From the NCBI RefSeq assembly GCF_030704535.1, contig NC_081820.1, positions 23,616,001 through 23,680,000 on the forward strand: a stretch of 64,000 nucleotides of DNA, given 5' to 3'. This DNA comes from Vitis vinifera (taxonomy: Eukaryota; Streptophyta; Magnoliopsida; Vitales; Vitaceae). This document shows, piece by piece, positions 33,350-62,678 of the stretch. The stretch's first letter is position 1, and every line of letters starts with the position of its first letter. The translations under genes and the position numbers were made by a program. The notes below the pieces were generated by a model. That model was not told where the DNA came from. It ran no database searches and saw only the letters and a list, made by a program, of their open reading frames with translations.

Positions 33350-33673
33350 TCCACATCTTATCATTTATACAAAGCACGTGACACAATCCAACAAATAGAA
33401 GCTCCTGTGCTTATACGTATAAAAGTCCAAACTTGAGCCGAAAAGTCATGAATTGGACACGGTTGAGAAGGGTCTAGGAAGCCCACCAGCAGTCCTACTT
33501 TAGCCTCTTTAAGTATATCAGCTGCTCACAGGTATATATATATATAGCTCATTAGGTCATTGCCGCCCCCCCTACTTCCCATTATCTCCTTCACAATTGG
33601 TCTCCTCAAACCAACCAGTTCTCTCTCCAATAATCCCCATTTTCTTAACTTTTCAAGAGCCAAAGCAAAAAAA
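33350..33673 (+). promoter_or_regulatory. Promoter of LEA2 gene at 33674 (G-box and TATA box)
   Basis: A CACGTG G-box (33375-33380, in GCACGTGAC, the ABRE core) lies about 150 bases upstream of a TATA stretch (33533-33546). A GGACACGGTTGAGAAG box near 33457 recurs as GGACGCGTTTGAGA at 40764 and 63233. An ABRE suits a stress or ABA-responsive LEA gene; regulation is inferred. Confidence 0.6.
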
Positions 33674-34303
33674 ATGGCACAGAAGAAGCAACAGGTCCAT
33701 CCCATTGAACCCACTGGTGGGCCAGCCAAAACTGATGTAGAGTCTGAGGAGCTTCGCCGCATGAAATGCACAAGATATATAGCATATCTTTCTGCTTTTG
33801 CTTTGTTCGAGACCATTGTTATAATGGTCTGTGTAGTCACCCTGATGCGTATCAGGAGTCCGAAGTTTCGGTTCCGTGCTGTTTCTATTGAGAATCTCAA
33901 CTATACATCCGACACAACTTCACCCTCATTTAACATTAGATTCAATGCCAAAGTCGCTGTCAAGAACACCAATTTTGGACACTTCAAATTCAAGAACAGC
34001 ACCATTACTCTAGCTTACAGAGGTGATCATGTTGGGGATGCCAAGATTTCCAAGGCTCGAGCTCGGGCTAGATCCACCAAAAAGATGAATGTAACAGTTG
34101 ATGTTAATTCAGACCATGTATGGAGCCACTCAAACTTAGCCAGGGATCTAAATTCCGGGTTTTTGACACTGACCAGCCAAGGGAAGTTGAGTGGGAAGGT
34201 GCACTTGATGAAGGTAATGAAGAGGAGGAGATATGCAGAAATGAATTGCACTATCATCATTAACTTAGTACGTAGACGCATCCAAGATTTAAAATGCAGA
34301 TAA
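33674..34303 (+). CDS. LEA2/NHL protein, At1g64065-like
   Basis: 209 residues. The ATG at 33674 was chosen because MAQKKQQVHPIEP aligns with MAEKDQQV starts of the paralogs, although the frame is open 38 codons further upstream. It has a charged cytosolic N terminus, one membrane segment (about residues 35-58), then a LEA_2 domain (SPSFNIRFNAKVAVKNTNFGH, STITLAYRG, HVGDAKISKARARARSTKK, LSGKVHLMKVM) and a basic C terminus ending CR instead of the CN of the paralogs. The family are small single-pass membrane proteins like NDR1/HIN1-like proteins, linked to stress and defence. An old copia relic begins about 200 bases downstream. Confidence 0.92.
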   Translation: MAQKKQQVHPIEPTGGPAKTDVESEELRRMKCTRYIAYLSAFALFETIVIMVCVVTLMRIRSPKFRFRAVSIENLNYTSDTTSPSFNIRFNAKVAVKNTNFGHFKFKNSTITLAYRGDHVGDAKISKARARARSTKKMNVTVDVNSDHVWSHSNLARDLNSGFLTLTSQGKLSGKVHLMKVMKRRRYAEMNCTIIINLVRRRIQDLKCR

Positions 34304-34503
34304 AAATGAATTCTACTAATAAGAGGGATTGGATTAAAGTTTTGCTCTGTGTATGTATTTTTCCTATTGAAGATGTATGTTGAATGATGTTTCAACCATG
34401 TGTAATAATTTTTAGATGAAGTATATTTTATATTTTTTTCTAGGATAGATTTTAGATATCTAGGAGGAACCATCAATCCTATTTATCTCGCCATATTTAC
34501 ATA

Positions 34504-37129
34504 TATTGGTTTTTGGCTTAATTATTATTATTTTTTTATTCTCTCTTTGTCCTACCTCACCTAGATATTAGTTTTGCCTAGGCATGAGGGCTTATAAATA
34601 AGTCCGCATCCTTTTGCTAAGGTATCTTAGTGGCTTTAATCAACATTAATGTGGATTTGGAGAAGAAACTTTTTCACTACCAATACGAACCAAATTTGGT
34701 ATGAATGATCACATGCATACTTTTGACAAATAATAGTAGATTTGTTGAATGTGGATGAAAATATTTAAGATGAGAGTAAAGTTTGTCATTGTTAAATTAT
34801 TTTCTAAATGAATATGAACATCTCACCGTCACCTTATTTTATGGCAAAGATAAGGTGACTTTTCATGTTATGCATATTACTTTACTAAACTCTAAATACA
34901 AGAAGCTCCAAAAGGTTTATAGGAAAATTTCATAAGAAATATTAACAATGTGAAGTTGAACTCAAAGTCATAAACTTGGAAAAAGAGAACTCTTCATCTA
35001 AGGAAAACTTGTGAAAGAGGAATGTGCTTTTTGCCCTAAAAATAGGCATTGAAAGAAAGATTATCATAAACTACAAAAGAAGAATAAAGACAAGATAGTG
35101 TTTGATGCTTATGTAGTCAAGTATGGAGATGATAAGTAAAGCTTTGCTTTGATTGGCTTATCTTTGGTATGCAACTTAGATGAATGGATTTTTTATACTA
35201 AATCCACTTATCAAATGTGTTTCTTCAAGGAGTTGTTTTCTAACTTAGATGAAGTACATGGTGGAGTTGTTATATATATATATGGTGGAGTTATTAGTAA
35301 TAAATGCTTATAAGACAACAAGAATATGTACAATCCAATTAAAAACTCATACATGTCGGATCAATCAAAGCTTGATAGATGTTCAATATCAACCAAATTT
35401 AAAAAAAAAAAAATCTCAATAAAAGTATTAATTAAAATCCATGAGATGAAAGTAATTATGTTATGTGCACTTGTGGTGATGAAAGAAGTAAGAAAAAATT
35501 GTACTACTTTTAAGGAAGTATAATTATTGAACGAGTGGTTACAAACTCTAAAGTTGATGAAAGATTAGAAAGTACAAGGTTATGACATATGCGTTGGGGA
35601 CATATAGGTGAAAAGACTTCACCAATCAAGCTTGGTGAAGCAATTAAAGGTTATTAAAGAGTGAAAAAAACTTGTAGACTAGGATTTTGTAGCATTGCAT
35701 TTTCCGAAAACAAACAAGAATGAAATTTGAGACTACCAATCCATCATATTGAAGATATCTTGGATATACCCATAGAAATGTTTGGGACAAACCAATGTAG
35801 CTTTCTTGACAAGTATGTACTATTTTGTTACTTTTCATTGACCACTTCTCCAAAAGAATTTGGGTGTTTGTCTTGAAAACTTATTAGGATGAAGTTTTAA
35901 TTGAATTGTTTTTGGAATGAAATGGTTAAAACTCAAACTAGCTAGAAAATCAAATAGTTGAGACTAGATAATGGTGATGAATACAAAAGTAATCCATTTC
36001 CCAAATATGTCAAAATGAGGATATTATTTGAGACTTCATAGTTACAAGTGCACCACATTAGAATTGAGTAGCATAGTATATGAATTGAACTTTCTTGGAA
36101 AAGGTTTGATGTATGTTTTTAAATGTTGGATTTTGAGCGAGGAGCTTTGAGCCAAGGGAGTTGCTTATGCATGCCATTTCATCAATCATATAATATCAAC
36201 TGCAATTGAGAGCAAAAATTTTATAGAAGTATGGTCTACAAACCTACAAACAATTGTGACTACTAACACATTTTTTGCTCTAGTGCATTTTATTTTTTTT
36301 ATTTTTTTGTGAAGAAATATGGATTAGATTTTGTCTTCAAATGACCAATGAAGGTATCATAAGTGAAGAAGATGCATCAACTTAACTACTTTCACAATAG
36401 CAAATTTTGATTGCAATTGGTAGATTAAAAGGAGAGATTTGAATGCTTACTCGATTGATTGATATGGTGGCATATGCACATTTGGCAGTCAATGATGATA
36501 TTCCTTTTTCTTACTTTTTAGACTCAATTAATATCATGCGAGTTTGAACACCTTTAGGTGCATGTATGTGTGCATTTGAGGTGTATTTAGAGGAAGTGAT
36601 AGTTAGTTCACTTATCAAATAATACTTCAATTCTTGAAATTGGTAGTGGATAATTAGTTTCACTAAGGTGGAGATTTGTTGGGTTTTGGGTTACTTAGTA
36701 TTTTTTGATTCTATTGACTCTTTGTCCCACATCCATTATATGTTAGTGTTGCCTAGGCTTGTAGGCTTATAAACCAATGCATGTTAGTAACTTCAGCAAA
36801 CATTAGTGCAGAGAAGGCTCTTTGTCAAGTAAGAACCTCTAACTTTGATATTCTTCCAACTCTTGTAATTGTCTGATTTGAAGGTAATGAATTGGTTGTC
36901 ATTGCCTGATGACATGGGTAAGATATTCTTATCGAAACTGATAAATATGATATATCTCTCTTTTGTTGCTATTATTTTTTCTAATTTTTCTGTTTTTAGG
37001 AATTGTTTATTTTATATTGTATTACATATATTTTGTTAATTTTATTTGAATCCTGTAGGACTAGGACTTAGAACAAAACCAGTACTTAGTGCTAATTAGG
37101 TCCTGTGGGATGTAGTCCCCAGCACAACA
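34504..37129 (+). mobile_element. Old Tnt1-like copia relic with decayed LTRs
   Basis: The 3' LTR (36677-37129, TGTTGGGTTTTGG to CACAACA) follows a typical AAGGTGGAGAT purine tract. A decayed 5' LTR starts near 34504; shared text includes GTGTTGCCTAGGC and GGCTTATAAA. Between them are a zinc-knuckle remnant CAFCPKNRHWKKDYHK (35025), a protease-flank remnant GGVV..., ALVVMK (35470), RWGHIGEK (35595) and decayed integrase text to about 36240. RT and RNase H are mostly missing. Flanks ACATA and ACCTA form an approximate 5-bp duplication. Every frame carries stops. Confidence 0.82.
36677..37129 (+). repeat. 3' LTR of the Tnt1-like relic
   Basis: 453 bp, TG...CA, directly after a purine tract. 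Partial match to 34504-34700. Confidence 0.72.
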
Positions 37130-37421
37130 ACCTATACGCACAATCGAGCAGCTTGACTACATTAAAGTACTACTGTTTTCTTCTCATTGCAGTTCTGATC
37201 AAACATTCAATAAAGTTCATCAAGAACGGATATGCTGGATTAAGGCTTCCATTTTCGGGATTTGTACAATCTCTACTCTACTGATCTGGTTGCCCTTAAA
37301 ACTTCTACATCAAACTTGGGATTGGATCCGGCTGTGATTAAATTGGTCTTTTGCAACTTTTGAGCTCTTCTATGAGTGTTCTCAACCTTTAATTTGGATA
37401 TAACTAAAGAAAAGAAAAAAA

Positions 37422-37830
37422 TAATCATAGGAATCATCATGTTAATTTGGATCTTAAACTATGCATTGTATTGAAGAAGAAGAAAAAGAAGAAGAAGAAG
37501 AAGAAGACATACATTGGGATTGAAGAAGAAGAATCATAGCAATCATCATGTTAATTTAGATCTTAAAGCCATGCATTGGGATTGAAGAAGAAGAAGAAGA
37601 AGAAAATAATCATAGCAATCATCATGTTAATTTTGATCTTAAAGCCATGCATTGGGATTTAAGGAACTCGTCAAATATGACCTTGATATAGACATTTTCA
37701 CTAAGAAGAAAAAGAAGCAGCAAGCAGCCCAAGAAGAAGCAGCAAGCAGCCATGCATTGGGATTTAAGCAACTTGTGAAATGTGGCCTTGATATAGACAT
37801 TTTCACTAAGAAGAAGAAGAAGAAATGAAG
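37422..37830. repeat. AAG-rich minisatellite with two unit types
   Basis: Unit 1 (ATCATAGCAATCATCATG followed by TTAATTT and GATCTTAAA) occurs three times, near 37422, 37535 and 37608, each followed by an AAG tract. Unit 2 (CCTTGATATAGACATTTTC within a longer stretch) occurs near 37680 and 37783. The open frames here are artefacts of the repeat. Confidence 0.85.
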
Positions 37831-39218
37831 TGGAAAAAAAATCCCGGAAAAACCAAGAAGCTAGAAACAGAAACAGCAAAAGAAAAAATCCTAGAAAAAC
37901 CCAGGAAAAAATCCCAAAAGTGTACTGTATTTTTACTAAGAGGCTAGAAACAGAAAACCCCCATATGCTTCACTTTGATGTGGAGGCTAGGCAGCAAAGA
38001 AACCTGAAAAGGCAGCCTTTTCCAAACTAACTTCAAATTCTTTACAGCAGAGCTTTAAGAAGAGGAGAAATCTTCAAACCACTGCAATTTGATACAAGAT
38101 CTAACTGAGGGAAAAATCTTGATTTCAGAAAATGTGCCGCTGTGCAATTGAAAACCAATCAATACTTATGAAACCTTTTGGCCGGTCAGTCCATATTTTA
38201 GTATGTGCAGCAGAGTCATATTACTGAGGTTGAGAGCATCACTCATCATGACATTCCATACTGAGGTAGGCCTCAAGAACAAGCAATTTAGATGACTTAA
38301 AGTTTGACAACGGTACATGCAATTACATTATTAAGTTTTAGTGGTTTTAATATTTGAGAATGGGAAATGAAAATGACTATTTTGTTTTTGTACTTTTTTT
38401 TTTAATATGAATAAATTTGATGATTTCAATTATTGTATTTGAATACGTCTAAAAATATATGACTGGAATGCTTATTTGTTTTTATTTCAGTATTTGATAA
38501 CAATGAGAATATGAATATAAAAAATAAATTAATAATAATATGCTTACACATATTTTGTAGTTTTGCTAAATAATAAGATTAAGAAAAATAGAATTTACTT
38601 AATAAATAAAAATTAATCACAAAAAGTCATAAAAACCTAATAGAAATATAATGGTAAAATAATACTTCTAATAAATTTTCTATATCAAGAAAATCAAAAT
38701 ACTTCATCTTGGAAATCAATTGAAATCCTATTTATGGGTGAGATTTTTACTCAAATCGTTTTTAATTCCATTCTCATTGAATTTTAAGTTATTCAAATAT
38801 AGAAATAACTAAAAAAAGAAATGAGATGTTCATTTCCACTCATCATTAATTTCTTCATAATAAACATGTCCTAAGGTTAATGCAACTTCAAGAAAAATGT
38901 GTATATCTTGGCCAATAGCATAAACTCAAGGGGAATTTGACACAACTAGCTATGGCAAATTAAAAATCAATGTAAACGGACATTTATTGAGTAGTCCCCA
39001 TAAGTAAATATTTTTAGGTCCAATTTTTTCGGGTTTTAAACACAACTCCATCCTCTACCCAGGAAAGAAGTATAAATGAAGAGTATACAGAAACCTAGAA
39101 CGCGGGATTTTTTATCAATGGGCTTAGAAACTTCTAACAATGTGGAAACCGTGTAACAATATCTAACACTGCATTGTCTTGTACAGATGCTGAATAATCT
39201 AAAGATGGAAGCTTCAAA

Positions 39219-39219
<1 letters not shown>
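37831..39219. other. Intergenic stretch
   Basis: No gene or mobile element recognised. Confidence 0.45.

Positions 39220-39248
<29 letters not shown>
39220..39248. repeat. (TTA)n microsatellite
   Basis: About nine TTA units. Confidence 0.93.
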
Positions 39249-39249
<1 letters not shown>

Positions 39250-39429
39250 TGTTAGCTATGGTCGGAGATGATTTTGTGGAGAGAGATTTTGACTATGGAA
39301 GATACCAAGTTCACACAACTTTATTAGGTGCAAATCAGTGGAAACTTGTGCAGTGCGTGGAATTATTTTTTTTTGTAGAAGTTTGTATGCTTATACTTTC
39401 CTCAAAATGGTAGTTATACCATACCAAAA

Positions 39430-39636
39430 TCCACATATTCCAAGGGCCAAAAGCTAAAGCCAATGAACGCGATAGGAACTTTTCTACAAAGGCGTGCCAT
39501 ATCACTTAAGTCATCTATCATATTCTACCTTATATATACCCATCTCAATCTTCAAATCCCAGCATCATCTCCTCACTGAGCAATCAACACTGAACAATTA
39601 AAACCCTTGTTTGTGTTCTTTTCAAGAGCCAAAAGA
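39430..39636 (+). promoter_or_regulatory. Promoter of LEA2 gene at 39637
   Basis: TATA box TATATATA at 39531-39538, about 100 bases before the ATG. Further upstream AAAGCCAATGAACGCG and TCACTTAAGTCA are shared with the promoter of the copy at 45255. Confidence 0.62.
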
Positions 39637-40281
39637 ATGGCAGAGAAGGATCAACAGGTTTTTCCTATGGAGCCAACTAATGCTCAAGTCAATACTGATG
39701 AAGAGTCTGCCAGGGTTCATTCTGAAGTGCTTCGCCATAAGAAGCGCATGAGACGCCTAGGGTGTGTAGCTGCTTTCACCGTGTTGCTGACTGCTATTAT
39801 TCTAGCCTTTGCACTAACTGTAATGCATATCAAGAATCCCAAGTTCCGGTTTCGTTCCATTGAGATTGAGGATCTCAGCCTCCGCTCGTCCACCACGACT
39901 CCATCATTCAGCATGAGGTTCGATGCAGAACTCACTGTCAAGAACCAGAATTTCGGCCCATTCAAGTATGACAAAACTGCCATTCCAATGTCTTATGGGG
40001 GCACCAAGGTTGGTGAGGCTTTTATTTCTAACGGTGAAGCAAAGGCAAGATCCACAAAAGTAATTAAGGTAACTGTGGACGTGACTTCAAACAATGTATC
40101 AAGTAATTCAAACTTGGCCAGTGATATAAATTCGGGGTTTTTGACTCTGACCGGCCAAGGCAAATTGAACGGGAAGGTGCATCTGATGAAGGTGTTTAAG
40201 AAGAAGAAATCCCCCCAAATGAATTGCACCATCAAAATTAATTTAGAGAACAAAGTGATCCAAGAATGGAAGTGCAATTAA
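39637..40281 (+). CDS. LEA2/NHL protein, At1g64065-like
   Basis: 214 residues. Start chosen at MAEKDQQVFPMEP, ten codons inside the longest open frame, by alignment to its paralogs. It has a charged N terminus with a basic patch (RHKKRMRR), a membrane segment (about 42-63, CVAAFTVLLTAIILAFALTVM), a LEA_2 domain (PSFSMRFDAELTVKNQNFGPFKY, KVGEAFI, KLNGKVHLMKVFKKKK) and the conserved end MNCTIKINLENKVIQEWKCN. It is the most similar paralog of the disrupted copy at 6725 in the N terminus. Predicted single-pass membrane protein, plausibly plasma membrane. No lesions seen. Confidence 0.94.
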   Translation: MAEKDQQVFPMEPTNAQVNTDEESARVHSEVLRHKKRMRRLGCVAAFTVLLTAIILAFALTVMHIKNPKFRFRSIEIEDLSLRSSTTTPSFSMRFDAELTVKNQNFGPFKYDKTAIPMSYGGTKVGEAFISNGEAKARSTKVIKVTVDVTSNNVSSNSNLASDINSGFLTLTGQGKLNGKVHLMKVFKKKKSPQMNCTIKINLENKVIQEWKCN

Positions 40282-40679
40282 AAGCTTAGGAGTCCTTGTT
40301 AGTTTTCCATTAGAAATGGTACTGTGTACCAAATGCTGAGTTCAGTCTCTACATTTATTGAACCCTTACATTCATTTTCATTCCCTTATTCATAATGAAA
40401 CTGGTAGCACCACCTATTTCATCATTCCACTATAAAGATTATGTGATAAGAGGGGTGGTATTGAAGCTCGTCCCCTAAAGAGAGGAAGGCCAAAATGCTG
40501 CTTTTTGACTGCAAGTGTAGGAAACATAGAAATTTCAGGCCACTGCTTTCTGGGAGGCCCATTATATTCTTAAGCATAACGATTTCATTTCTAAAATATC
40601 TCAATCTAGAAACTTTGACTTGGGTTTCATTTGTTAATTTTTTATGATACAATTTTCGCGTCTTCTATTCTATAATCCT
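40282..40679. other. 3' flank of the LEA2 gene
   Basis: No feature recognised. Confidence 0.45.
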
Positions 40680-40900
40680 ATATAATAAGATCATAAGCCT
40701 CACAACCCACCAATAGACGCTTCTTTCCTGAGTGGAAGAGTCAAGAATCAAAGACATTGGACGCGTTTGAGAAGCCCAAAGGAAGCCCACTCGCTGTTCT
40801 AGATTAACAGATTTCCATGGACGTTTTCCACATCACTGAATTTTAACGTGGTCGTTAAATCAGCTGCTCCCATCTATAAATGGGTCCATATAAAGTGACA
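40680..40900 (+). promoter_or_regulatory. Orphan LEA2-type promoter without a gene
   Basis: Resembles the promoter at 33370-33550 through ordered shared blocks: CCAACAAATAGA/CCACCAATAGA, GGACACGGTTGAGAAG/GGACGCGTTTGAGAAG, GGAAGCCCAC, ATCAGCTGCTC and a TATA-like TATAAATGG at 40876. No LEA2 coding sequence follows. A copia LTR starts at 40942 instead, suggesting a lost tandem copy. Confidence 0.6.
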
Positions 40901-40941
40901 ATAGTCCAAAATTTCACATGCCTGTTTATTATTCAAATAAA

Positions 40942-42165
40942 TGTTGGGCTAGCCCATATATGAGTTCCAACCCATGAGAGTGGTCTTTTGAAAAGGCTCA
41001 TATTCTGGACTGCTCTTGTAACTGGTTTATGGGCCCGATTTGGCAGCATCTAAAGCTGCGTTTGGAGGTAGAGAAGACCAGATTTGAGGGCAGATTGTTG
41101 AAAATGAAAAAGAGAGAACGGAAGAAAATAAGGGCTGTTTTCAAGGCTCATGGGGGGTTGATCCAAGTGTGAAGGTCTTTAACTTCAACCATTATAGAAG
41201 CTCTTTTGTGATATCTTCTCTTCATTATCTTCCCTTTCTCTGTATTTATGAGATGAGGGTTTTCCATCTCAAGCATTGGTGCATTTCCACTCTTCTTTAT
41301 TGCCAAAGAAGCTAGTGAGGACTTTGTGTTCGTATTTTATTTGAAATGGAAGAAGGTTTCTTGTGGTTTTAATTTTACCTCCTTTGGCGAGTTTTTCCAC
41401 ATTGCAGCGATGACTCTTGGTTGATATATTTTTAGGCTATAATTGCTTTCTGTTCTGTTGCAGTTGTAAAGCGAATTGATTTGTACAGGTGACAAAGGCT
41501 ATATTCTGCCCATCAGTGAACTATCCCCCACTGTCGTTTGCAATCCCCCAGTACGGTTTAGCATTCCCAGCTCATCAGTTGTATATCCAACCACTGTCAT
41601 TGCATCACCTAAGTCCTAGCTTGCTTTGCTATCGTCTAAATGTTACTCCATCTCTCGTCATTCTCAACAAGCAGTATCAAAGCCTGTGTTGGTTGTGATG
41701 GAAGGATCTTCTAGCATAGTGATTAAGCTTACAAATACCAATTGGTTCATTTGGAAGCCAAAAATGGAAGACATCCCTTATTGTAAGGATTTATTTGAAC
41801 CCATTGAGGGTGAGAGTGCTAGACACTAAAATATGAATGATGATGGTTGGAATAGGTTGTGTAGAAATGCGCACTCTAGCTCCGGGGCAGAGTGTCGCTC
41901 CATAGCCTCTACAACTATTGAGTTGACTTGGATTTCATTTTTATTGAGAGAAAATGGCATTCCACTTCAAAAACTAGCTCAGTTATTTTGTGACAATGTT
42001 AGTGCACTTCATATGTCATTTAATCCCATGTTTCATGCTGGATCAAAATACATTGAGCTTGAATATCATCTTGTCCGAGAGAAGGTTGCCACAAGTTCCC
42101 TTGTCACTAGATGTATTTCCTATGGATATAAAAATCACCATCCTTTAAGCCCAATGAAAACTTGA
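40942..42165 (+). mobile_element. Internally deleted copia element (LTR, gag start, RNase H end)
   Basis: A probable 5' LTR (40942-41669, TGTTGGGC to CTCAACA) is followed by a primer binding site like CAGTATCAAAGCC (41672) and the gag start MEGSSSIVIKLTNTNWFIWK at 41699. After 41829 sequence jumps to RNase H (SSSGAECRSIASTTIELTWI, LFCDNVSALHMSFNPMFHAGSKYIE to 42090). The entire protease, integrase and RT are missing. A 3' LTR was not identified. Confidence 0.75.
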
Positions 42166-43369
42166 AACTCATCACCACTCAATGGAATCCTCCAAAGAGA
42201 TACAAGGTTTTTGAGAAATCACTCTGAATAAACTAAAGGTAACTTCTATTCAACTAGCCAAAAAACTCCTGATCAAGACAAGTTAAAAGACTTTACAGTT
42301 TCCACTTGGAACAAACCCTCCAAGCATAGGTTTCGAAAGCACCCATTGACATTCTCAATTTCACGTAGGAAATTGAGGAAAGTAAGAAATGGTGGTAAAC
42401 TAGGAATTTCCATAAGGTTTGAATGAAGCAAAACCATTTATAAAAATTTGTCATAACTTTACCTAGAAAATTCGGAATGAGGCATTGTAAATTAGAGTCT
42501 TGAGTTATAGGGATTTCCATGATACTTAAGTTGTTGATTAATTTTGACTAGATCAATAAAAGCTTCTCTTCAAAAGATGTCCAAAATCTCGTTCTAATGT
42601 TACCTAAGCTTTGGGAAATTAATGTGAGAATCTAAAGCTCATTCGACCATATATGGGCGTCTTGCCATGTAGACAGGTCAACACTGGTGGCCTTGAGATC
42701 CTAACTCTAACTTGAAGACCCTATAGAAATTGGGCCAGAGAAGTATGACGAAGTGAATTTAGGTTAAATTTTGGTGATCAGCACGTAGTAATGTGTGTGT
42801 GAGAGAATCACAGTTCATTGGACCCTATGTTCTTACATAGAGACAATGAAATGGATAAACTTCAATCAAATCTTTACAAAAGAGCTTGGAAAGGCGAAAA
42901 ATATTGTCACATTTATGGGTGGGGTGGCACTAATATGTTTCATTTTTGTTGTTTATCAACCTTTGTCATTTTGTATATTTTCTAAGTACTTGGATTCAGT
43001 CCCTTTTTTATTTGTGGTTTTCATAAAATCGTTCTTTTACCTCAAAAAGTTCTAAATGTCTTTTCGGAGAAACTGGCATAGCATGTGAATGTTTATGTGT
43101 ATAATTCAAAAAAGATTTTGGTAGAAACTAGCATATGAAAGACATCATTGTCTCTCTTAAAGAAACTAGAAATCTTATAATGCAGCAATGAAATAAAACT
43201 ATTGTAGCAGGAGATGAGACTACACTACTTTAAGACAAAGACTTCTTCCAAAAACTTTAGGGCAGTCCATATTCTAGGTTATGCGGCAGAGGAATGGCAT
43301 CATTTTCCATGTGGGAGTCTGTAGTTTATAGTTTATTCTTATTATAGCATACCAAAAGCCAAAGATTCC
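42166..43369. other. Intergenic stretch
   Basis: Nothing recognised. The 86-codon open frame at 42795 has no family features I know. Confidence 0.4.
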
Positions 43370-43454
43370 GTGAGTAAAAAATTAAGGCCATCAAACCCTT
43401 CAACAATGGTGGACTATATCTCTCAGTCCTCAATCAGGTGCTACTTTGCATCCA

Positions 43455-43460
43455 TATATA
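43455..43460 (+). promoter_or_regulatory. TATA box of LEA2 gene at 43589
   Basis: CATATATACC context, 130 bases before the start codon, equivalent to the TATA of its paralogs. Confidence 0.6.
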
Positions 43461-43588
43461 CCTATGACCCATTAAATTCCTCAAATCCCACCATCACCTC
43501 CTCACATTCTCGGACAGCAATCAGTAATCATCAACAAAATCTCTACAGAAACAAATCACTCTTTTCTCAACTTCTGAAGAGCCAAAAA

Positions 43589-44215
43589 ATGGCAGAGAAG
43601 GAGCCCAGCAATATTGCTCAACAGAAAAGTGATGTAGAGTCTACAACAATGCATTCTGAAGAGCTTCGTCCCAAGAAGAGCATGAAATGTCTAGCATATG
43701 TAGCTGCTTTTGCCGTGTTCCTGACGGTAATTATAATTCTATTTTCACTAACTATAATGCGAGTCAGAGATCCTAAGCACCGGTTGAGCTCCATCGGGGT
43801 TGAGGGTATCACCTTTAATTCCTCTACAGCATCTCCATCATTCAGCATGAGATTTGATGCAGCAGTAGCTGTCAAGAACACAAATTTTGGTCAATTCAAG
43901 TTTGATAATAGCACCATCAAACTCGCCTATAAGGGCACCAACGTTGGAGAGGCCATTATTGCCAAGGCTCAAGCTCGGGCTAGATCCACCAAACGGATTG
44001 AGGTACTTGTGGGTGTGAGTTCAAACAATGTATCAAGTAACTCAGCCTTGGCCAGTGATATAAACACCGGGATTTTGACACTAACCAGCCATGTCAGGTT
44101 GGATGGGAAGGTGCATCTACTGAAAATTTTCAAGACCAAGAAATCTCCAGAAATGAATTGCACCATCAACATTAATTTGGTGGATAAAGTGATCCAAGAT
44201 TGGCACTGCAATTAA
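43589..44215 (+). CDS. LEA2/NHL protein, At1g64065-like
   Basis: 208 residues. The ATG at 43589 in an AAAAAATGGCAGAG context matches the paralogs; the frame is open 73 codons further upstream through the 5' UTR and TATA box, which is unlikely to be translated. It has a polar N terminus, a membrane segment (about 36-57, YVAAFAVFLTVIIILFSLTIM), a LEA_2 domain (PSFSMRFDAAVAVKNTNFGQFKFDNSTIKLAYKG, NVGEAIIAKAQARARSTK, RLDGKVHLLKIF) and the conserved end INLVDKVIQDWHCN. Intact. A G-rich tract follows about 180 bases after the stop. Confidence 0.94.
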   Translation: MAEKEPSNIAQQKSDVESTTMHSEELRPKKSMKCLAYVAAFAVFLTVIIILFSLTIMRVRDPKHRLSSIGVEGITFNSSTASPSFSMRFDAAVAVKNTNFGQFKFDNSTIKLAYKGTNVGEAIIAKAQARARSTKRIEVLVGVSSNNVSSNSALASDINTGILTLTSHVRLDGKVHLLKIFKTKKSPEMNCTININLVDKVIQDWHCN

Positions 44216-44392
44216 AAGGCAATGTTCCATGTATACTTGTATATATGCTTGAATAACGTGTTCATATGTAATTGTTTTTAGATCTATAGTCATTTCGTTC
44301 ATTCAATTATTCTGAAATTGGATGACAACCTTGTTGCAAAAACCAATTTGGGGATTTTGGTTTTTGTAATTTTTCTTCTTTTTTGTTTTTTT

Positions 44393-44416
44393 GGGGGTGG
44401 GGGGAGTGGGTGGGGG
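44393..44416 (+). other. G-rich tract, possible G-quadruplex
   Basis: Four or more runs of three to six G within 24 bases, in the 3' flank of the LEA2 gene. Confidence 0.7.
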
Positions 44417-45054
44417 CGGCCCTGGATTTTCATATATATGTATAAGTCGGGACCATATGATAAAACCCCTCCTACAATGACATTTCTTAGTAGCTGCTTG
44501 CCTTGTATTAACCCCATGCATAGTCAGACTTGGGACTGCGCCTGTCTGCTACGTACTCAAACTACTTTTCAACCTTTGGACATTTTATGTGTGGTATTAT
44601 ACCTTTGATATTACTAACAACTAAATCTAATGTCAATACAACCATCAAAGCCACAAACAACCATAATTTTCATACAACCAGCATTGTAAGGAGAAGAAAC
44701 ATACAGGAAAACGTTCCATCTAGATTTGGACTAAATATATCTAGTCATCTTAATTTTAAAATTTCATTAAGTACATCTTCTTCTTTCTCATTTGTTATTT
44801 TTTTCTCTCTTTTTTAATTTAGAATAAAAAGGATATTTAACGAAATTTTAAACTCATTACAACAACGTAAATTTAACTCAAACCTTAAAAAAGATGAATG
44901 AAATTAATTTACCCTTATTTTTGTACTTCAGCTTCTTCCCACAAGACATGAGCATGGTGCCCACTAATTGTTTCAATAAAAATCTGTGTTCTTATACTTT
45001 TACCCAAACTATTAATTGCACCATATGAAAAGTCAAAAGATTGCTAGAGTCAAA
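44417..45054. other. Intergenic stretch
   Basis: No gene recognised. Short open frames here are without family features. Confidence 0.45.
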
Positions 45055-45254
45055 TGCTAAAAGCCGACTAACGCGTTTGGAACTTTTTCAGCAACGGTGT
45101 GCGGCATCACTTGAGTCAAATGAGTCATAGTTGGCTTCTACCTCACAAATAGCCATCGCAGCCCTCCCATCTCACCATCATCTCCTCGCTAAGCCATCAA
45201 CAATAGCTCCACAGCAAAAACCCTTCTTTCTGTACTTCCGAAGAGCCAACCACA
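45055..45254 (+). promoter_or_regulatory. Eroded promoter of LEA2 copy at 45255
   Basis: GCCGAC (45063-45068, DRE/CRT core) and AACGCGTTTGG are present. The position of the TATA box in the paralog at 39531 reads CCTCACAAATAGCC here (45141-45154), so the TATA box is lost or weak. Confidence 0.5.
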
Positions 45255-45902
45255 ATCGCAGAGAAGGATCAACAGGTCCACCCCATGGAGCCAACCACAG
45301 CTGAACCTAAAACCGATGTAGGGTCGGCCAGTGTGCAGTCTGAAGAGCTCCGCCGCCGCAAGAAGGGCATGAAATGCTTAGCATATGTAGCTGCTTTCGC
45401 CATTTTCCTGACTGCCATTATACTAGCCTTGGCAGTAACTGTCATGAATATCAAGAATCCTAAGTTTAGGCTCCACTCCATTGACGTTGAGGATCTCAGT
45501 TTGAGCCCCTCCACCACACCTCCATCCTTCAGCATGAGACTTGATGCAGAACTAGCTGTCAAGAACACAAACTTTGGTCACTACAAGTACGAAAACAGCA
45601 CCATTACACTGGCCTATAGAGGCACCAAGGTTGGAGAGGCCTTGATTTCCAAAGGTAGAGCAAGGGCAAGATCCACCAAAGAGATTGAGGTAACTGTGGA
45701 TGTGACTTCAAGCAACGCATCAATTAATTCAAACTTGGCCAGTGATTTAAATTCCGGGATTTTGACCCTGACCAGCCATGGAGAACTGAGTGGGAAGGTG
45801 CATCTGATGGAGGTGATCAAGAAGAAGAAAGCCCCACAAATGAATTGCAACATCAACATTGATTTGGTCAAGAAAGAGATCCAAGATTGGAACTGCAATT
45901 AA
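45255..45902 (+). CDS. LEA2/NHL protein with lost start codon (next ATG 45285)
   Basis: By alignment the start should be ATGGCAGAG, but the window reads ATCGCAGAG at 45255. The first in-frame ATG is 45285, giving 205 residues that lack the first ten (AEKDQQVHP type). The rest is intact: basic patch RRRKKGMK, membrane segment (32-54 counted from 45285), LEA_2 domain (PSFSMRLDAELAVKNTNFGHYKYENSTITLAYRG, KVGEALISKGRARARSTKE, ELSGKVHLMEVIKKKK) and end IQDWNCN. Because its TATA box also looks eroded and its 3' end is tandemly duplicated, it may be a decaying gene. Translation from 45285 is possible. Confidence 0.8.
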   Translation: MAEKDQQVHPMEPTTAEPKTDVGSASVQSEELRRRKKGMKCLAYVAAFAIFLTAIILALAVTVMNIKNPKFRLHSIDVEDLSLSPSTTPPSFSMRLDAELAVKNTNFGHYKYENSTITLAYRGTKVGEALISKGRARARSTKEIEVTVDVTSSNASINSNLASDLNSGILTLTSHGELSGKVHLMEVIKKKKAPQMNCNINIDLVKKEIQDWNCN

Positions 45903-59405: not shown

Positions 59406-59410
59406 GTAAG

Positions 59411-59820
59411 TGTTAGAACTCATGAGAGTTTACCTCTGAATTTTGAAAAAGTCTTAGTTAAACTTAGTCTTTGTTATTGTTTCATATCAGATTCTTGCTC
59501 CATAATTTTCTGTTTTCAGTTAGTAGAAGTAGTGCCAATAAAATCTTATAGTAGCTAAGAATATATATGTTGATGATGTGAGTTTGCAGTTTGTTCAAAC
59601 AGTGGATGGACCGGCAGTCTTGATAAGCACCTTTGAGCAGCTTGAGAAGTGGAGTGGGGATCCATGTCTCCCTAGTGACACCATATGGCAGTGGCTAAAC
59701 TGTATAGGCAATGACCCTCCAAGAGTAACCTCCCTAAATCTCTCAGGGTATGGACTAGATGGCTCTCTCCCTTACTTCAGCCAAATGCAGGCTCTAATAC
59801 CACTATCAAAATCTTTAGGT
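59411..59820 (+). repeat. Copia-5 5' LTR, truncated
   Basis: Matches 62246-62655. Many of its differences are A or T where the 3' LTR has G or C. The match ends at a T run, exactly where inverted gag sequence begins. Confidence 0.88.
59578..59799 (+). pseudogene. Captured LRR receptor exon fragment in the Copia-5 5' LTR
   Basis: Encodes about 73 residues: a pre-LRR junction typical of malectin-like LRR receptor kinases (LEKWSGDPCLPS, IWQWLNCIG, PPRVTSLNLSGYGLDGSLP) and the start of the next LRR (YFSQMQAL). There is no start, membrane or kinase part. It is a gene fragment and not a gene. The parent host gene is outside this window. Confidence 0.8.
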
Positions 59821-60143
59821 TTTTGTCTTTCTTAAGTTTCTCCTCCTCATATGCTTTCATCTGAGCAACTGTAGGATTTTCTCTTAATGGTGGTGGATCA
59901 GCTTCAGACATCACAACATTCCACAAACCTTGAGAACTTAAGTAAAGCCTCATCTTGACAGACCAAATGTGATAGTGTTCACCATTAAACACTGGAATTA
60001 TAGAGGAAATGTTGTTGGAAGTAGACATGTTTGCACCACAACTGCCTGAAAAAAAAAAAATCACTCAACCTCACTATGTTTAGTACTCAAAACACTTAAA
60101 GAAACTTCGTCTCACATCCCGTAGGAACAGAGCTCTAATACCA
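59821..60143 (-). pseudogene. Inverted Copia-5 gag start, leader and primer binding site
   Basis: On the minus strand: primer site TGGTATTAGAGC (60143-60132), a leader with an A run (T12 as read on minus), then gag from 60028 (MSTSNNISSIIPVFNGEHYHIW...EEEKLKKDKNLK), cut at 59821 where it meets the LTR. Orientation is opposite to pol. Confidence 0.85.
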
Positions 60144-60146
60144 CTA

Positions 60147-62241
60147 CAACATAATGGAGTCTTTGAGAGGAAGAACAGAACGCTAATGGAAATAGCAAGG
60201 CGCATGCTATTCGAGAAGAAACTACCAAAGCTTCTATGGGTTGAAGCAGTTAGCACCTTAGTAAATTTGCTTAATAGACTACCAACTAAGTCTGTTTAGA
60301 GCAAAACACCAATAGAGGCATGGTCTGGTGTAAAACCATTTGTCAAGAACCTAAAAGTGTTTGGCTCATTGAGTTACCTTCCTGTGCCATCTATCAAGAG
60401 AGGCAAGCTTGATGAAAGAGCTAAGAAAGGTGTTTTTGTTCAGTATCAAAAGGTTACATAATTTATAGCTAGAGTAGAATAAAAATTGTGATAAGTAGAA
60501 ATGTGCACTTTGATGAAAATTCCTACTAGAATTGGGACTTGAAGAAAGTCCATAAATGTGATCAAACCACTCCATCTATTCTTTAACCAATAGTAGAAAG
60601 TACAAGTATTGAAGATCCACTTGATGTTGAAGCAACTTCAAACACACCAGTGCTTAAGGTAAGGCCATTATCTGATGTGTATGAGAGGTGCAATCTTGTA
60701 CATGCTGAGCCTACATGTTACACAGAAGCTGCAAGATTTCCAGAATGGATTGAGGCTATGAAAGCTGAAATTGATGTTATTGAAAGAAATGGAACTTGGA
60801 AGTTGATAGAATTACCTGAAGCTAAGAAGGAAATTGGTGTAAAATAGGTTTTCATAACCAAATTCAATTCAGATGGTTCAATCTTCAAGTACAAGGCTAG
60901 ATTGGTTGTGAAGGGTTTTGCTCAAGTTGCTGGAGTGGACTATGGTGATACATTTGCACCAGTAGCCAGACATGACACTATAAGGCTGCTACTTGCACTT
61001 GCTGGTCAAATGGGATGGAAGGTGTACCATTTAGATGTCAAGTCAGCTTTTCTAAACGGTATACTTCTTGAAGAAATTTATGTTCAACAACCAAAAAGCT
61101 TTAAGGTTACTGGGCATGAACAGAAAGTGTACAAGCTACACAAGGCTCTCTATGGTTTGAAGCAAGCACCAAGGGCCTGGTATAGCAGAATTGACTCTCA
61201 CCTGATCCAACTTGGATTTAGAAGGAGTGAAAATGAAGCTACTTTGTATTTGAAACAAAATGAGGATGGTTTGCAATTGGTAGTGTTAGTTTATGTTGAT
61301 GACATGCTAGTGATTGGAAGCAATGTACGATTACTAGCTGAGTTCAAAATGGAAATGCAAGATGTATTTGAGATGTCTGACCTTGGCATCATGAACTACT
61401 TCCTTGGAATAGAAATATACCAATGCAGCTCGGGTATCTTCATTTCACAGAGAAAATATGTTGTTGATATTCTCAAGAAGTTCAAGCTAGAATCATGCAA
61501 AGAAGTAGCAATTCTGTTGGCACAAAATGAGAAAATTTCAAAGAATGATGGTGAGAAACTTGAAGAACCCTCTGCATATAGAAGCTTGGTAGGCAGCCTA
61601 CTATACTTGACAACAACCAGACCTGACTTGATGTTTCCAACTGGTTTGCTTTCAAGATTCATGAGTTCACCTAGCAATGTTCACATGGGAGTTGCAAAAA
61701 AGGTGTTGAAGTATGTTAGAGGTACAACAAATCTTGGCATCTAGTATTTAAAGATAGGATGAGTTAAGCTAGATGGCTATGCTGATAGTGATTGGGCAGG
61801 AAGTATTGATGACATGAAGAGCACTTCAGGTTATGTATTTACAATCGGTTTAGGTGTCATTTGCTGGAATTCAAGAAAGCAAGAAGTAGTGGCACAATCA
61901 GCTACAGAAACTGAGTATATCTCCTTAGAAGCTACTGCAAATCAAGGAATATGGTTAAGGAAATTGCTTGCTGATCTAGGCCAGGAACAAAGCTCACCAA
62001 CAGAGCTTTACTGTGACAACAAGTCAACCATTGTCATTACTCAAAATCCTGTCCAACATGGTAGGACCAAGCACATAAATGTAAAATTTCACTCTATAAG
62101 GGAAGCTGAAAAGAATTCACTTGTCAAGTTGCATTATTGCTCAACTGATGTGCAACTTGCTGACATAATGACTAAGACACTTCCTAAATCAAGGCTGGAG
62201 TTCCTAAGGTTGAAGCTTGGCATGTCCAGGGCAAATCTCAA
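60147..62241 (+). pseudogene. Copia-5 pol, truncated and degenerate
   Basis: Starts inside integrase at NGVFERKNRTLMEIARRML. Stops at 60298 and around 60460-60600 break the integrase C terminus. Then RT begins (LSDVYERCNLVHAEPT, 60665), has a stop at 60845, and continues VVKGFAQVAGVDYGDTFAPV, FLNGILLEEIYVQQP and YVDDMLVIG (about 61300) to 61742, where TAG interrupts, followed by RNase H (YADSDWAG, TETEYISLEA, LYCDNKSTIVI, LADIMTKTLP) ending at 62251 inside the LTR start. The protease and most of the integrase are missing. Confidence 0.9.
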
Positions 62242-62245
62242 GGAG

Positions 62246-62673
62246 TGTTAGAACTCATGAGAGTTTGCCTTTGAAGTTTGAAAAAGTCTTAGTTAGACTT
62301 AGTCTTTGTTATTGTTTCATATCAGATTCTTGCTCCATAATTTTCTGTTTTTAGTTAGTAGTAGTGCCAATAAAATCTGATAGTAGCTGAGAATATATAT
62401 GTTGATGATGTGAGTTTGTGGTTTGTTCAAACAGTGGATGGACTGGCAGTCTTGATAAGCACCTTTGAGCAGCTCGAGGGGTGGAGTGGGGATCCATGTC
62501 TCCCTAGTGACACCATATGGCAGTGGCTGAACTGTATAGGCAATGACCCTCCAAGAGTAACCTCCCTAAATCTCTCAGGGTATGGACTGGATGGCTCTCT
62601 CCCTGACTTCAGCCAAATGCAGGCTCTGATACCACTGTCAGAATCTGTAGTTTTTTTCCTACAGATTCTGACA
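62246..62673 (+). repeat. Copia-5 3' LTR
   Basis: 428 bp, TG...CA. Ends with a 15-bp perfect inverted repeat (62636-62650 and 62659-62673) around a T7C loop. Just before it, 62623-62634 is the reverse complement of a tRNA-Met primer site. Confidence 0.88.
62410..62628 (+). pseudogene. Captured LRR receptor exon fragment in the Copia-5 3' LTR
   Basis: Same fragment as at 59578-59799 with a better preserved sequence (LEGWSGDPCLPS, GSLPDFSQMQAL). The LRR homology ends at CAGGCTCTG, which overlaps the inverted primer site GGCTCTGATACCA. Confidence 0.8.
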
Positions 62674-62678
62674 ATAAG

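Follow-up and report, generated by a model that had tools for sequence, protein, structure and literature searches.

A grapevine Copia element carrying a partly spliced receptor-gene fragment in both LTRs and an antisense primer-binding-site hairpin in the 3′ LTR

The DNA analysed here, referred to as the window, is a stretch of 64,000 nucleotides from contig 16 of the Vitis vinifera genome (495.6 Mb in 21 contigs). In the region 33560-45902 it contains four open reading frames of 205-281 aa (33560, 39607, 43370 and 45285), which are alike by eye and may form a tandem gene cluster. The subject of this work is a Copia element of 3.26 kb, located at 59411-62673. The element is bounded by two direct repeats, the LTRs (59411 to about 59820 and 62246-62673), which are 94-95% identical and lie 2.83 kb apart. 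Its outer limits, TGTTAG...GACA, are the ends of ordinary family copies elsewhere in the genome: each LTR starts with TGTTAGAACTCATG, the outer end of the 3′ LTR is TTCTGACA, and the same ends are found in other copies. The TG...CA limits proposed in a first-pass annotation of this DNA are thus the true ends of the element. They are flanked by the target-site duplicates GTAAG (59406-59410, left) and ATAAG (62674-62678, right), which agree at four of five positions; with the ends fixed and at the local base composition, a match of at least 4/5 would arise by chance in about 3% of cases. Five other copies have both outer ends readable, and a perfect 5-bp duplication is present in three of them (L010, L017 and the LTR-only copy L019) and absent from L014 and L016. 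A further copy, L022, lies about 105 kb from L017 on contig 7, and the 3′ flank common to the two, TAATTGAA, points to a duplicated segment there.

Between the LTRs, on the forward strand, is a pol remainder (60147-62245) that is 91-94% identical to other copies and comprises the end of the integrase region, assigned by homology to those copies, the reverse transcriptase, and a 3′ part which we take to be the RNase H region. The Pfam family RVT_2, expected of a Copia-type reverse transcriptase, was found on 60902-61741 (4.6e-70), whereas a Pfam search of 61814-62248 returned no family. The pol is interrupted by at least one stop, its open reading frame ending at 61744. The assignment to Copia made in the first-pass annotation is borne out by this domain and by the pol identity, and the two LTRs, the TG...CA ends and the 5-bp duplicate (4/5) are those of a Ty1/copia element, with the reservation that the 5′ LTR lacks its last 23 bp. 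At 3.26 kb and with an RVT_2 domain, the element is not a TRIM, which would be very short and non-coding.

Each LTR is built, in order, of about 150 bp of ordinary U3, a piece of host sequence, an antisense primer-binding site (PBS) and an antisense U5 end, and the 3′ LTR then closes with a loop of seven T (T7) and a normal U5 end. The U3 part of the 5′ LTR (59411-59560, forward strand, 150 bp) is up to 96% identical to ordinary LTRs elsewhere, with 83-96% identity for near-complete matches in the fetched copies, and that of the 3′ LTR (62246-62392, forward strand) was delimited by homology to other copies. The host pieces occupy 59561-59795 and 62393-62627. The same receptor fragment had been reported inside both LTRs (59578-59799 and 62410-62628); it is indeed present in both, with slightly longer extents. 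Since it starts upstream of the family's TATA-like CCTATAAATAGG and replaces this box together with most of the downstream LTR sequence, the suggestion that it forms part of the element's promoter is not supported, and the LTR is predicted from its sequence to have lost transcription.

The donor is a gene on the minus strand of contig 6, the parent receptor gene for which the first-pass annotation had proposed a search. In the 5′ LTR, where all host parts are in forward orientation, the piece begins with 42 nt of retained intron (59561-59602), which end ...TTCAAACAG and correspond to the 3′ end of the intron preceding exon A, up to its CAG, just upstream of the splice acceptor. They are followed by the 133 nt of exon A (59603-59735); intron piece and exon A together are 97% identical to C6:4924267-4924441 (minus). 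The first 60 nt of exon B come next (59736-59795; 95% to C6:4924113-4924172, minus). The 3′ LTR contains the same intron end, exon A and start of exon B (62393-62627, forward strand), with 3 substitutions in 230 sites relative to the contig 6 gene, against 8/230 in the 5′ copy. The 94-bp GT-AG intron between exons A and B (GTATAC...TTGCAG) is exactly absent from the window, where the exons are directly joined. The precise absence of an intron in a match to one gene, as expected of RNA-mediated capture, indicates that the template was RNA, and since the preceding intron is partly retained, the source was a partly spliced transcript. On this sequence evidence, the host fragment in the LTRs is derived from spliced RNA of the contig 6 receptor gene. 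The original description of the fragment as a host exon therefore holds as to its receptor-gene origin, but not as to a single exon: it consists of 42 nt of intron, all 133 nt of exon A and the start of exon B, and is followed by antisense PBS/U5. The name malectin-like rests on a neighbouring exon of the donor gene, which encodes a malectin-like domain (7.3e-16), while the 63-residue reading of the insert itself gave no Pfam family; the LRR character of the donor is putative, as read from its sequence.

Downstream of exon B, GCTCTGATACCA, one base and TGTCAGAATCTGTAG are the PBS, the spacer and the U5 end of the family, all in antisense. In the 5′ LTR this block, identified against the PBS and U5 ends of other copies, spans 59791-59818 (minus strand) and overlaps the GCTCT of exon B; in the 3′ LTR, where tRNA-Met genes were also used for comparison, it spans 62623-62650 (minus strand). 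The T7 loop and the ordinary U5 end, ...CTACAGATTCTGACA, follow at 62651-62673 (plus strand), and with 62636-62650 they make up a perfect 15-bp hairpin. The complete tail of the 3′ LTR reads GCTCTGATACCA-C-TGTCAGAATCTG-TAG-T7-CCTACAGATTCTGACA. The stem is paired at 15/15 positions and the loop has 8 nt; none of 200 shuffles of the 76-nt stretch folded equally well, and the exact hairpin sequence has a single location in the genome. Elsewhere in the family, the PBS (TGGTATCAGAGC; L010 and L018 have variants) lies one base past the LTR end; after this spacer it begins TGGTATCAGAG in three of the five copies listed, the two variants being the exceptions. Regarding the U5 tails of other copies found by pattern, CTAG precedes a T-rich stretch in 11 of 13, seven of the 13 having CTAG with an unbroken T-run, and is lacking there in the other two.

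A tRNA-Met pattern search gave ten hits, nine of which end CCTGGCTCTGATA and one CCTGGCTTTGATA; all four fetched hits were recognized as tRNA-Met by ARAGORN. The tRNA-Met that matches the PBS is presumably of the initiator type. Exon B reads CAGGCTCTTGA at the joint and the tRNA-Met ends CCTGGCTCTGATA, so that GGCTCT is common to the tRNA 3′ end and the host mRNA. At the U3 joint, where other copies read ...AGCTGAGA and the host intron piece reads ATATATATG, zero or one base is in common. Common bases at joints inside the element, a feature of RNA-mediated capture, are present at the GGCTCT joint, with 0-1 base at the U3 joint.

The left half of the element is further rearranged. The 5′ LTR, which lacks its last 23 bp (T7 and U5 end), breaks off within the loop and continues into an inverted piece of the gag N-terminus and leader (59822-60146, minus strand; 89-91% identical to other copies, in reverse orientation) that ends in an inverted PBS. 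The joint sits in an A/T run common to the loop and gag (GACAAA), and most of gag and the start of integrase are missing between the inverted piece and pol. No PBS directly follows the 5′ LTR, where several other family copies have one; in the window a PBS is seen only in inverted form, at 60132-60143 and in the LTR tails. Because pol is 91-94% identical to family copies, several of them with a PBS, we read the missing sense PBS as damage to this copy. The inverted gag/leader may have arisen in the same aberrant synthesis or through rearrangement at a later time.

Searched against the genome, 59411-59850 yielded 44 matches (40 of 54 candidates scored): the two LTRs of the window, three pieces on contig 6, and 39 other LTR pieces that match only within the first 150 bp. 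The contig 6 matches are two parts of the donor gene and a nearby relative of 76% identity. Within 15 bp, 34 of the 39 other U3 pieces run into the ordinary R-U5 stretch (R-U5 search, 40 of 70 candidates scored). The remaining five comprise those on C1 and C9, each with a second U3 piece 200-300 bp away that does run into ordinary R-U5, those at C7:5075613 and on C18, which are only 73-78% identical, and one on C13, which is 93% identical. Both insert junctions were also searched genome-wide (3 of 3 candidates scored each) and were found only in the two LTRs of this element and, for the host sequence, in the donor gene. A spread of LTRs with the insert, which the first-pass annotation had envisaged, was therefore rejected.

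The divergence between the LTRs is K 0.054 over 408 sites (16 transitions and 5 transversions); at 6.5e-9 to 1.3e-8 substitutions per site per year, the insertion would be about 2-4 million years old. The changes are unevenly distributed, the 5′ LTR (59411-59818) having accumulated more of them after insertion than the 3′ LTR (62246-62650). When the 234 bp host piece is polarised by the donor, seven changes, five of them G to A, fall in the 5′ LTR and two in the 3′ LTR, with one site at which both differ from the gene. Private U3 changes number three in the 5′ LTR and none in the 3′ LTR, and the antisense PBS/U5 blocks differ from each other at 4 of 28 bases, more than the rest of the LTR. An excess of G-to-A changes in the window pol (24/453 G sites versus 6/316 C sites, p 0.02) was weighed as a possible sign of editing, a reading that was dropped because four of ten other copies are biased the opposite way (p<0.05). 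The strand bias of private C-to-T/G-to-A changes thus varies in the family pol, the window leaning to G>A and L020, L018, L012 and L016 to C>T.

In our interpretation, to which we assign a probability of roughly 0.7, a partly spliced receptor mRNA was captured by the Copia element while minus-strand strong-stop DNA was being made, and the locus is probably the direct product of that event. From the arrangement of the parts and the strand on which each lies, the absent intron, the hairpin, the common bases at the joints and the lack of a second copy of the junctions, we infer the following order of steps, which would fit within a single round. Synthesis primed by tRNA-Met would proceed through the U5 end and the T-run there, as far as CTA. 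The 3′ end would then fold back on the TAG in CTGTAG, leaving an 8-nt loop, and the fold-back strand would be extended over the U5 end and the single spacer base and for 12-13 nt into its own primer tRNA. At GGCTCT, the new end would jump to the receptor mRNA and be extended toward the mRNA 5′ end, past one splice junction and into the retained intron. A final jump would lead into the U3 of the element RNA, to a point that lies about 150 bp from the LTR start and precedes the TATA box, and from there synthesis would continue, the usual R-to-R first strand transfer having been bypassed. The tRNA-primed strand would then consist of the U5 end, an A-run and CTA, followed by that U5 end in reverse, the spacer, the PBS and antisense host sequence. 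The order of the 3′ LTR tail, spacer base included, is the product expected from a fold-back at CTA/TAG. Through plus-strand strong-stop synthesis, the other end would receive U3, the host piece and the hairpin, which accounts for the presence of the insert in both LTRs after one round, and a jump into U3 upstream of CCTATAAATAGG accounts for the loss of the TATA-like box and most of what lies downstream. The two events invoked have each been described elsewhere: self-priming of strong-stop DNA in HIV-1 (PMC4668388), and patches of host RNA acquired at short common bases in retroviruses (PMC4997597).

The proposed course is also supported by the ordinary R-U5 of 34 of the 39 other U3 pieces and by the host junctions being found nowhere else. 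Against it, this is a single case, the fold-back seed has only 3 bp, no more than one base is common at the U3 joint, and CTAG is lacking before the T-rich stretch in 2 of the 13 U5 tails. The target-site duplicates of the element disagree at one position, and duplicates are absent from two of the five other copies with readable ends. The lack of the second hairpin arm in the 5′ LTR, the 4/28 differences between the antisense blocks and the inverted gag/leader call for at least two more joins, which are outside the model. With neither the ordinary TATA box nor most of what follows it, and with no other copy found in the genome, the new LTR was probably dead on arrival, and the element is now probably inert.

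The antisense PBS/U5 could also have come, after the same RNA capture, from a second, separate tRNA-primed strong-stop molecule, with no fold-back within one strand. Used as a template, such a molecule would leave an identical sequence; two molecules would, however, have to meet exactly at TAG/CTA, and the 15/15 arms and a loop resembling the ordinary T-run are most simply explained by one folded strand, so that we regard this origin as unlikely. A receptor cDNA might instead have been placed in one LTR by break repair and copied to both LTRs in later rounds of transposition. Break repair with reverse-transcribed spliced mRNA has been reported in mouse zygotes (PMC4516963), but it leaves the antisense PBS/U5 block that adjoins the insert unexplained, an LTR without the ordinary R region could hardly pass another round, and the searches with both junctions revealed no parent element, all of which makes this course improbable.

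Two readings dispense with the capture during synthesis or give it a function. The first-pass annotation had named, as findings that together would speak against it, the absence of the insert from any other genomic LTR and outer limits arising by chance, for example in a local segmental duplication. The former is what was found; the latter is not. A duplicated segment carrying an LTR fragment and a pseudogene fragment would agree with the 5′ copy being incomplete as an LTR and with its different right end. The ends, though, are the same as in other copies, the element is flanked by 5-mers that nearly match, and pol lies between the repeats, again as in other copies; together these features identify a Copia element and not a local duplication. 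Nor do the flanks have a comparable second copy, the left one giving three weak partial matches elsewhere in the genome (70-118 bp, 76-77%) and the right one none, and the duplicated segment was rejected as very improbable. Finally, the host piece might have been kept for driving transcription, with ATATATAT of the host intron as a new TATA box in a working variant LTR. This run does sit at the U3/host joint, but no other copy of the junctions was found in the genome and pol is broken, and we give this idea almost no credence.

Capture of a partly spliced mRNA during strong-stop synthesis, our preferred reading, is a variant of a known gene-capture process, seen here in one copy that is inert as far as visible. 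Many gene captures by LTR retrotransposons are known, but rarely can the moment of capture still be seen, and the joints described here appear to record an intermediate in which the fold-back strand was still attached to its primer tRNA. If this is right, the self-priming of strong-stop DNA described for HIV-1 (PMC4668388) also occurred in a plant Copia element, and, with the help of a host mRNA, self-primed strong-stop DNA could still end up as an integrated product. An antisense PBS next to an inverted U5 end would be the mark by which such events could be counted elsewhere. A doubtful, wider proposition is that host exons enter LTRs by a general route, in which tRNA-primed strong-stop DNA folds back and the 3′ end of the primer then directs a jump to a similar site in a host mRNA; if true, this route would replace the first strand transfer, double the captured exon in one round, and leave a diagnostic antisense-PBS hairpin searchable in any genome.

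Among the literature matches listed, in a search mainly of freely accessible papers, there was no report of an LTR that combines part of a spliced host mRNA with an antisense PBS hairpin. A 2026 review of plant gene capture covers template switching and names BARE-2 and Veju, the term “strong-stop” being absent from it (PMC13317346). Host gene capture as such is well represented: Bs1 of maize is a gene-fragment capture (PMC13317346), at least 189 independent captures in LTR elements have been counted in maize B73 (PMC2774510), and a survey of TRIMs describes exon-only host pieces and internal regions similar to host genes (PMC4717578). The TRIM GmaRetroS15 shares with the present element intronless host exons between a short target duplication in an element with LTRs (PMC4717578), and Bs1 and the maize captures share with it a gene fragment taken up by an LTR element (PMC2774510, PMC13317346). 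The TRIM gene matches, however, are described for internal regions (PMC4717578), and for the maize captures the part of the element is not given in the available text (PMC2774510), whereas here the host piece is in both LTRs and is accompanied by an antisense PBS/U5 hairpin. Cassandra, too, has LTRs that contain host-derived sequence (PMC10853983, PMC4717578). It carries a 5S promoter, though, and is a lineage found across plants, while the present case is one broken copy with an mRNA piece, whose LTR is explained by U3, sequence of the contig 6 receptor gene and U5/PBS, apparently without 5S rRNA sequence. BARE-2 and Veju-L of the Triticeae were likewise altered by an abnormal template switch, in BARE-2 within the LTR (PMC13317346, PMC1950507), but the partner of the switch was another retrotransposon in BARE-2 and an unknown sequence in Veju, as against a spliced host mRNA here, and the available parts of these accounts mention no fold-back mark (PMC13317346, PMC1950507). 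There is also a likeness in mechanism to HIV-1 and other retroviruses, with fold-back on strong-stop DNA and host RNA patches at short common bases (PMC4668388, PMC4997597). There the two are described in separate papers, whereas here both seem to be combined in one plant element, at the LTR.
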